NCBI GenBank assembly: GCA_027038835.1
Contig: JALWGC010000005.1
Span: 1 to 45,300 of the forward strand
Origin: Helicobacteraceae bacterium
GTDB taxonomy: Bacteria; Campylobacterota; Campylobacteria; Campylobacterales; Sulfurimonadaceae
DNA length: 45,300 bases
Reading direction: 5' to 3'
A program made the position numbers and the translations under genes. Positions 19,747-21,987 of this stretch are shown here, in pieces. Numbering within the stretch: position 1 is the first letter of the stretch; each line of letters starts with the position of its first letter. The notes under the pieces were generated by a model, which saw only the letters and a program-made list of their open reading frames with translations, searched no databases and was not told where the DNA came from.

Positions 19747-21207
19747 TTATTTTATAAGGTCGGCACGAGGGAAGACGAAGCGCGCTTTTCTGTAAACCGA
19801 TATTTTCTTGCTCGGTTTTCCGTTTTTATCCAAAGCGTAAGCGTGGATAGTGATAGGGATGATAGTGTCGTCTCTACCGTTATTGACGAGCATGTCATGT
19901 GTAGAGAGGATAACTATCTTTTTCTTTTTGATTCCCGGAGTGACACTAAACGGTTTTGTCGGTCTTTTGATGTAAATCTTACCTTTTACAGGGATGTCCG
20001 GTGTCACTTCGAAGAAGAATTTCATCTTCTCGTTTTGTGTGTTTTGCAACAAGAATTCGTATGCGTTATCGACTCTGAAACGGCAGTTCGCATCTTTACC
20101 GAGAGTACAACCTCTAGGTTCCGTTTTTATGGAGTAAGCACGCGTTTCTTTGTTGATGTTAAGAAGCATGTACTCTTTCGTTCCAGCCATTTTCGCCAAA
20201 ACACCCATGATAATGAGAAGAACGACGATATAACCGATGATTTTCGGTCTGAAATATTTCGTTTTTCCTTTTCGGTAGAGTGTTTCGTATTCGCTCGACC
20301 ATTTGACGAGTGTCGGCTCGTTGAACTTCGCCATGACGTCGGTACAGGCATCGACACACTCAAGACAGTTGATACACTCAAGCTGCAAACCGCGACGGAT
20401 ATCGATGTGGGTAGGACAAACCTTCACACAGCTCTCACAAGCGGTACAGAGTGCATCGTCACCGTTGATCGCTTTGACCTCTTTTTGGCTTTTGGCGAGT
20501 TTGTGGTGCTCTTCATCGTAGATTTTACCACCTCTGTGCTCGTCGTAGATAGCCATGATGGTATGTTCGTCGTAAAGAACCGATTGAACACGAGAATAAG
20601 GACAAACATAGATACAGAAGTTCTCTTTGATAAAGACGATATCGGCAACCAAGAACGCCGCTACACCGAGAATGAAACCGATCATCACCATATGATCGCC
20701 CGGATTTTGAATATATTGCAAGAAATCTTCAGGCGGAACGAAATACCACATGAAATCGGATGCCGCGATGATCGCCAAAGCGGCCCAGATCACGATAGCG
20801 ATGATATGCTTGACCTTGTTTTCCGGTTTGGAATAATCGGGCTCTTTTTGTTTGTTCTTGATACTTCTGCGAAGTTTGAGAATCTTCGTTTCGATCAAAT
20901 CTCTGTAAATGACGCGAAAAACCGTTTGGGGACATACCCATCCGCAGAACATTCTTCCGCCAAATACCGTCATACCGAAAATACTGATAAAGAGTATCAT
21001 CAGCAAAAACGGCATCAGATAAAGCTCTTGCATATCGAACTGAACGAAGGCAAGGTGGAGTTTCATCTTGTCGAAACTCAGTAGGAAGAAGTGGTTTCCG
21101 TTTATTTTGATCCATGGTAGTACCAGCGCTACCACCGTTGCGATGATATAAACGACGTATCGTTTCGGTCTCCAGTGTGTTTTTTTAACCGTTTCGGCTT
21201 TGCTCAT
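19747..21207 (-). CDS. ccoG: cytochrome c oxidase accessory protein CcoG (FixG/RdxA)
   Basis: 486 residues. Membrane helices near residues 20-35, 63-82, 150-165 and 185-205 and one at about 325-345. The CcoG hallmark CGWVCPQTVF has Cys88 and Cys92; two ferredoxin clusters follow (CTACESCVKVCP at about 250 and CINCLECVDAC near 277), then a periplasmic Ig-like C-terminal domain. CcoG reduces Cu(II) for insertion into cbb3-type oxidase. Its ATG overlaps the stop of the recombinase-like regulator (ATGA), so the two are translated together. No other cco genes are in the window. Confidence 0.95.
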   Translation of the reverse strand: MSKAETVKKTHWRPKRYVVYIIATVVALVLPWIKINGNHFFLLSFDKMKLHLAFVQFDMQELYLMPFLLMILFISIFGMTVFGGRMFCGWVCPQTVFRVIYRDLIETKILKLRRSIKNKQKEPDYSKPENKVKHIIAIVIWAALAIIAASDFMWYFVPPEDFLQYIQNPGDHMVMIGFILGVAAFLVADIVFIKENFCIYVCPYSRVQSVLYDEHTIMAIYDEHRGGKIYDEEHHKLAKSQKEVKAINGDDALCTACESCVKVCPTHIDIRRGLQLECINCLECVDACTDVMAKFNEPTLVKWSSEYETLYRKGKTKYFRPKIIGYIVVLLIIMGVLAKMAGTKEYMLLNINKETRAYSIKTEPRGCTLGKDANCRFRVDNAYEFLLQNTQNEKMKFFFEVTPDIPVKGKIYIKRPTKPFSVTPGIKKKKIVILSTHDMLVNNGRDDTIIPITIHAYALDKNGKPSKKISVYRKARFVFPRADLIK

Positions 21208-21893
21208 TGCATTTCCCCTTTCTTTGTGGCTTTAGCGAGTTGTTTCTCTTCAATGATTTCGTCGGGACATTGTACCGTTTTTAGCACTTCTAATTCCTTA
21301 TTTTCATCTTTTTTCAGCAAAAAATTCTCCTTTGCGATTTTCTTGAGTTCTCTCGATTCTATATAGTCTTTGAGTGAACTGCGGCTTACTCCAAGGAGTC
21401 GCGCCATTTCGCTCACGCTTTTGCCTTCTTCGATAAACCCCATGATCTCATCGAGATAGATGTCGAATTTCGACGAAGAAAGACTCCCTTTAGGACGTCC
21501 GACCCTTTTTTCTTTGGTTTGTAGAAACATCTGGCGAGCGTTATCGAGCAGTCCAAGGACGAACATCGCGCTGCTGTCTTTCGTGACGACGACCGATTTT
21601 TGTACGAGGTGTATCGTAAGGTCGTTTTTGAACAGACAGTTGAGGCTTTGTGTTATCTCTTCGATATTTTCGCCAAATACCCAGATATCCGCTACGACAA
21701 CGGTTTCTTCAGGGTGTGCGCGAAAAAACTGTGTCGCTTTGAGACGTCTTTGCTCTTTGTCGTTTCCACCAGCTTGTTCGATGAACTTCTCCGTTATCTC
21801 TACATCGTTTGCGTAAGCGTACGATTTGATAAGTTTGAGTTGATCGAAAGCGGAACCAAAATGTTTGTCGGGACGGATATAGGCTATAGCCAT
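21204..21893 (-). CDS. serine-recombinase-like DNA-binding protein without catalytic serine
   Basis: 229 residues from ATG 21893; the in-frame ATG at 21935 overlaps the -10 box and is unlikely to be transcribed. The N-terminus (MAIAYIRPDKHFGSAFDQLKLIKSYA) follows the resolvase/invertase fold (YxRVSTxxQ...Q...L), but the catalytic V-S is replaced by P-D. The C-terminal third has the recombinase arm RVGRPKGS and a helix-turn-helix (GKSVSEMARLLGVSRSSLKDYI). Without the nucleophilic serine it should not cut DNA; a repressor or activator role is more likely. Overlap with ccoG suggests control of oxidase assembly. Confidence 0.82.
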   Translation of the reverse strand: MAIAYIRPDKHFGSAFDQLKLIKSYAYANDVEITEKFIEQAGGNDKEQRRLKATQFFRAHPEETVVVADIWVFGENIEEITQSLNCLFKNDLTIHLVQKSVVVTKDSSAMFVLGLLDNARQMFLQTKEKRVGRPKGSLSSSKFDIYLDEIMGFIEEGKSVSEMARLLGVSRSSLKDYIESRELKKIAKENFLLKKDENKELEVLKTVQCPDEIIEEKQLAKATKKGEMQ

Positions 21894-21933
21894 AGTAACG
21901 ATAAAACTCCAGATTTGATTTATTTTCATCGTC

Positions 21934-21963
21934 ATTATAGCTACTTTTGACGAAGAAAGTCAA
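21934..21963 (-). promoter_or_regulatory. promoter of the regulator-ccoG operon
   Basis: On the minus strand TTGACT (21958-21963) and TATAAT (21934-21939) are 18 bases apart: one of the few promoters here with a good -35 box. The operator-like inverted repeat overlaps this -35. Confidence 0.72.
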
Positions 21964-21987
21964 TAAAACTCTCAACTTTTTCGTCAA
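21947..21987 (-). promoter_or_regulatory. inverted-repeat operator candidate overlapping the -35
   Basis: TTGACGAAGAAAGT (21947-21960) and ACTTTTTCGTCAA (21975-21987) are inverted copies differing by one extra base, with a 14-base centre. It covers the -35 region of the regulator-ccoG promoter. The size of the arms fits binding of a recombinase-type dimer, so autoregulation is a natural inference. Confidence 0.65.

Follow-up and report, generated by a model that had tools for sequence, protein, structure and literature searches.

The closest described counterparts of the putative regulator considered here are the small serine recombinases, among them the gamma-delta and Tn3 resolvases, Sin, Hin and the Mpi invertase, with which it shares an N-terminal fold, a GRPKG-type arm, a C-terminal HTH and a DNA site made of two half-sites, each combining an outer major-groove motif with inner A/T contacts. 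It is a known property of resolvases that they repress the promoter of their own gene. Unlike these enzymes, the regulator has the catalytic Ser, Asp67, Arg68 and Arg71 replaced, its predicted operator spans 39 bp and contains no crossover core, and it combines a tail bearing a conserved cysteine with a fixed linkage to a respiration gene and a multi-promoter regulon. Two other types of systems invite comparison. On the one hand, SqrR, BigR and CstR, which sense persulfides, resemble it as two-cysteine repressors, which the regulator is predicted to be, and through partly similar targets (SQR-like proteins, rhodanese). Their folds are those of the ArsR or CsoR families and are unrelated to the fold of the regulator, for which sensing is a prediction and the SQR-like target of which lacks one of the SQR cysteines. 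On the other hand, TldR, domesticated from TnpB nucleases, and other regulators derived from mobile genetic elements are nuclease-dead enzymes reused as repressors, as the regulator would be; TldR is RNA-guided and unrelated, whereas the regulator would act through a protein-DNA operator and has been kept vertically over an order of sulfur-associated bacteria.

Self-repression by resolvases is established, but a catalytically dead resolvase kept by descent as a host regulator, with a fixed operator and several target genes, was not found in the open-access full texts searched. The same texts contained neither the regulator family itself nor any dead serine recombinase serving as a dedicated host regulator, and in a review on the recruitment of mobile-element proteins, serine recombinases figure as inverting enzymes. 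The genes probably carry annotations as recombinases and would for this reason have escaped notice.

The locus lies in a 45,300-nt stretch of DNA (hereafter the window), contig 5 of a 1.97-Mb genome of the order Campylobacterales; among named taxa, its closest relatives are of the Sulfurimonas and Sulfuricurvum types. The regulator gene occupies an open reading frame at 21204-21935 on the minus strand; its CDS (21207-21893, stop codon at 21204-21206) codes for 229 aa from the ATG at 21893 (MAIAYIRPDKHF), the start position used family-wide in its relatives, and an in-frame start further upstream is possible at 21935. The protein comprises a degenerate serine-recombinase domain (residues about 1-125), a GRPKGS..SKFD arm (residues 132-144), an HTH (residues about 147-184) and a C-terminal tail with a conserved Cys-Pro (C209-P210). 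Its stop codon and the start codon of ccoG overlap as ATGA (21204-21207, minus strand), and ccoG (19747-21207, minus strand) codes for a cytochrome c oxidase accessory protein of the cupric reductase family, an assignment made secure by 441.6 bits against TIGR02745 (cut-off 316.7). Translational coupling between the two genes had been proposed from the window, where the overlap does occur; it recurs in part of the family only, and the intergenic gaps are mostly 2-58 nt. The promoter read from the sequence consists of a -35 box TTGACT (21958-21963) and a -10 box TATAAT (21934-21939), both on the minus strand and separated by an 18-bp spacer.

The regulator family was found in 39 of 60 relatives. 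It is discrete, since of 397 genomes of the phylum that were scanned about 98 reach 171 bits or more and no further match exceeds 84 bits. The regulator gene immediately precedes ccoG in 38 of 39 cases (the lone exception, G052, carries it on a 3-kb contig), in 77 of 80 named relatives and at 39 of 39 outgroup loci. In several outgroup families ccoG is in turn followed by the SQR-like gene, which suggests an ancestral regulator-ccoG-flavoprotein operon.

The single sequence scores 20.8 bits against the Pfam Resolvase family, slightly under the cut-off of 23.3, and 37 bits (E 2.7e-9) against the Mpi invertase family model NF009949, short of its curated cut-off of 272 bits. Searched against the PDB, a profile built from 15 relatives finds gamma-delta resolvase (E 1.6e-7), Sin (3.3e-6) and also Tn3 resolvase, and the best 27 PDB matches of an AlphaFold (AF2) model (mean pLDDT 78.5, low near the inter-domain linker) are all serine recombinases; profile and model thus both recover the resolvase N-terminal fold together with the HTH. 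The sequence-only reading, according to which this fold and the HTH were kept and PD stood in place of the catalytic VS, is borne out: residue 9 is Asp, in a PD where active resolvases carry VS. Alignment with resolvases shows every aligned relative to lack serine at the active position (Y-x-R-x-S); all 80 named relatives have D or E there, and outgroup families have K, R, L, Q and others, with no Ser among 48 sequences of an outgroup-rich alignment. The gamma-delta LDRLGR motif (Asp67, Arg68, Arg71) aligns with an LWVLSS-type sequence across the regulator family, all three residues being replaced. Judged from these alignments, the regulator is a serine-recombinase fold with all catalytic residues (Ser, Asp67, Arg68, Arg71) replaced.

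By comparison, the DNA-binding half is nearly invariant (GRPKGS, SKFD, SRSSLKDYIESREL), the invariant or nearly invariant positions being GRP-K-G, S139, S141, D144, S161, R171, S173, D176, S180, R181 and L183. Two cysteines are essentially invariant, C86 and C209 both occurring in each of 38 members and, in the divergent alignment, in 48 of 48 and 47 of 48 sequences, respectively. They are the sole cysteines in most members and form a conserved pair of the kind expected of a two-cysteine sensor; His95 is mostly conserved. The Cys-Pro near the C-terminus (C209-P210) is retained in most members, several outgroups keeping the Cys and not the Pro, and Cys-Pro is also the dipeptide of heme regulatory motifs.

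The predicted operator O1 (21948-21986) is a 39-bp inverted repeat, TGACG-N29-CGTCA, that covers the -35 box and extends into the spacer, its promoter-side half lying between the -35 and -10 boxes. The motif is repeated in O2 (21896-21934, TGACG-N29-CGTTA), likewise 39 bp long and deviating at one position, which runs from the last base of the -10 box through the leader, 52 bp from O1 centre to centre. An inverted repeat at the -35 box had already been recognized (arms 21975-21987 and 21947-21960), and it is real and conserved; the conserved part is TGACG-N29-CGTCA, however, rather than the inner AAAGT then emphasized, and O2 had gone unnoticed. Upstream of regulator genes the motif sits at one fixed place relative to the promoter. 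An exact site with a span of 38-40 bp was found at 66 of 79 independent loci (mean 0.0 under Markov resampling) and one with no more than a single mismatch at 76 of 79 (resampling mean 0.32, maximum 2), exact pairs in the 80-locus set having spans of 38 (4 loci), 39 (59), 40 (4) and, once, 54 bp. Among the first 38 loci, 33 carry the operator with at most one mismatch, L008, where the left half of O1 is lost, being counted by its O2. At each of the 39 outgroup loci, a site of span 38-40 is present with two mismatches or fewer; the count admitted spans of 36-43 and less stringent matches and is weaker evidence than the 80-locus test. The repeat is thus conserved with the gene, and it overlaps the regulator's own promoter, as in an autoregulated repressor.

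Further features bear on how the site may be recognized. Positions A12 and T30 are nearly invariant although they lie outside the search pattern, and the half-site variants are symmetric (TGGCG..CGCCA, TAACG..CGTTA, AGACG..CGTCT), which argues for dimeric recognition. In the window's family, O2 is found at 59 of 76 loci when up to two mismatches are tolerated; it follows O1 at a distance of 13 bp (in one case 12), which places the two centres 51-53 bp apart across loci, about five turns. Arg replaces Lys at residue 175, in the recognition helix, mostly where the right half-site is CGCCA (L033, L036, L314-L319, L336, L352), a possible protein-DNA co-change that is confounded by kinship. When a 38-bp pattern, one base short, was used as a control, only the regulator sites of G037 and G039 stood out and the other matches were mostly GC-rich.

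Fold and site together weigh on the two readings that deny the protein a regulatory role. The resemblance to Mpi invertases would fit an active, perhaps conditionally active, invertase with the inverted repeats as its recombination sites; this is hardly credible for a family that lacks the catalytic serine in every member examined, with half-sites that are separated by 39 bp rather than placed on either side of a 2-bp crossover, and a constant orientation of the operator to the promoter in aligned loci. Phase variation was rejected on the fixed operator orientation and the missing catalytic residues. The loss of every catalytic residue is also what a decaying relic adjoining ccoG would display, the repeat then serving an unrelated regulator. 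That the gene persists as an open frame with an invariant DNA-binding domain across an order, constantly linked to the operator, and that sites are lost where the gene is absent make such a relic very improbable. The proposal of a domesticated recombinase acting as a regulator before ccoG is supported, no aligned relative having an active-site serine and the repeat being conserved with the gene.

Genome-wide searches relied on two operator models, R1, trained on ccoG-promoter sites alone, and R2, trained on sites of all classes and hence not independent of them. R1 finds strong additional sites in relatives, 40-90 bp before a gene for an SQR-like (sulfide-oxidoreductase-like) flavoprotein or before an operon that encodes a small membrane protein together with an M48 protease; the SQR-like and M48 genes were looked up in 60 genomes. 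In the window's own genome, R2 returns three sites, namely O1, O2 and one at the M48 operon (C17:10501). The latter is an exact 39-bp operator (L060:6003-6041, C17:10501-10539) before the genes for a 62-aa protein and the M48 protease, a two-gene operon with operator that recurs across the family. Assignment of the small gene to DUF4006 was rejected, no Pfam family matching it, and a perfect match at C12:57677 in the same genome is GC-rich and not called by the operator model. The SQR-like gene of this genome has no operator. Exact-pattern scans and R2 further place operators before rhodaneses (G012, G036, G026, G035), a c-type cytochrome (G010, G027, G015), a SLAC1 transporter (G020) and DUF6858 (G004). 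The operator also precedes NifX-like (PF02579) genes in G010, G027, G052 and G395 (L094, L266, L308, L310; at least two families), a TusA-like followed by an NnrS-like gene in G005 (NnrS named by eye) and TolC in G035 (named by eye). Rhodanese and SQR-like targets would fit a regulon of canonical sulfide-oxidation genes, but the SQR-like flavoprotein (L091:2589-3767) keeps the counterparts of Cys124 and Cys347 of A. aeolicus SQR while lacking that of Cys156, the third SQR cysteine, and so may not be a sulfide oxidiser. The minor targets (TolC, DUF6858, SLAC1) point to no single signal. The expectation that further copies of the motif exist in the genome was thus confirmed at the M48 and SQR-like promoters, but the expectation that they precede cco genes was not: no ccoNOQP promoter figures among the own-genome sites or the inspected sites of relatives. 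Instead of a set of cbb3 genes, the operator is common to ccoG, the SQR-like flavoprotein, the M48 operon and, in some genomes, sulfur-related genes.

The composition of this regulon bears on copper as the signal. CcoG, described as a cupric reductase (PMC8267372), has a role in copper delivery to the cbb3 oxidase that a dedicated regulator binding Cu(I) through C86, C209 and perhaps His95 would fit, with two invariant cysteines, a mostly conserved histidine and ccoG as the most constant target. Yet no copper pump, copper chaperone, ccoI or ccoS is found among the operator-bearing promoters seen, and the rhodanese, NifX-like and M48 targets are not copper genes; copper sensing, and copper as the signal, are unlikely.

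Operator sites follow the presence of the regulator, with exceptions. They were found in 35 of 37 regulator-bearing genomes searched, and R2 detects none genome-wide in the regulator-less G008, G021 and G025. The exact site of the M48 operon is present in 18 of 25 regulator-bearing genomes and in 0 of 4 complete regulator-less ones, and that of the SQR-like gene in 13 of 22 against 0 of 5, comparisons in which the regulator-less genomes are few and confounded by kinship. M48 or SQR-like sites are absent from some regulator-bearing genomes, and G014 (65% complete) has the M48-operon site and no detected regulator. In G021 (L121), a member of the genus of G004 and G032, the regulator is absent though its congeners carry it, a natural case of loss. 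What connects the protein to the operator is their position, their co-occurrence and the geometry of the site, which a different factor could bind.

The reading that we consider probable is that of a dedicated autorepressor whose ancestor was one of the small serine recombinases in the resolvase/invertase group, controlling ccoG and the M48 operon through a thiol switch at C86 and C209. DNA cutting would have been lost and the recombinase domain retained for dimerisation, possibly tetramerisation, and for sensing, while each protomer would bind a half-site TGACGnnnnAA through its GRPKGS arm and HTH. One dimer would occupy each 39-bp operator, which is one helical turn longer than the 28-bp resolvase cleavage site, and the dimers at O1, over the -35 box and spacer, and, in the window's family, at O2, over the -10 box and leader, would lie on the same helix face. 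As O1 and O2 cover the promoter elements and the leader, binding would block RNA polymerase and repress the regulator gene and ccoG; the operon of the small membrane protein and M48 protease would be repressed likewise, as would, in many relatives, the SQR-like flavoprotein and sulfur-related genes. Operator binding by the regulator, repression, cysteine chemistry and signal are all inferred from sequence.

The fixed position of the operator relative to the promoter could also recall an activator that recruits or realigns RNA polymerase, as MerR-type activators bind between the -35 and -10 boxes. These promoters have near-consensus boxes and spacers of 17-18 bp, as opposed to the long MerR spacers, and O2 reaches over the leader, where a bound protein normally blocks transcription, so that activation appears quite unlikely. 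Repression is favoured by a near-consensus promoter that has a normal 17-18-bp spacer and is covered by the operator.

The signal would most likely be sensed by the C86-C209 thiol switch, in the form of reactive sulfur species or a related stress. Reactive sulfur is suggested by the invariant cysteine pair and the rhodanese and SQR-like targets and fits the sensitivity of cbb3 to sulfide, a strong inhibitor of this oxidase in C. jejuni (PMC8267372); the chance that reactive sulfur or a general thiol signal is the actual cue falls somewhat short of even, and NO, like copper, is another candidate. More tentative is the full proposition of a new family of factors across Campylobacterales, in which a nuclease-dead recombinase, still built as a recombinase dimer or tetramer, senses reactive sulfur by its cysteines and acts through cooperative paired 39-bp operators.

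A review of respiratory regulation in Campylobacterota mentions cbb3 once and not on its regulation, and sulfide inhibits this oxidase in C. jejuni (PMC8267372); the operator therefore offers a concrete, testable entry to the question of how cbb3 is regulated. If true, the proposed mechanism would tie assembly of the cbb3 oxidase, along with quality control at the membrane, to sulfur stress across the order Campylobacterales.
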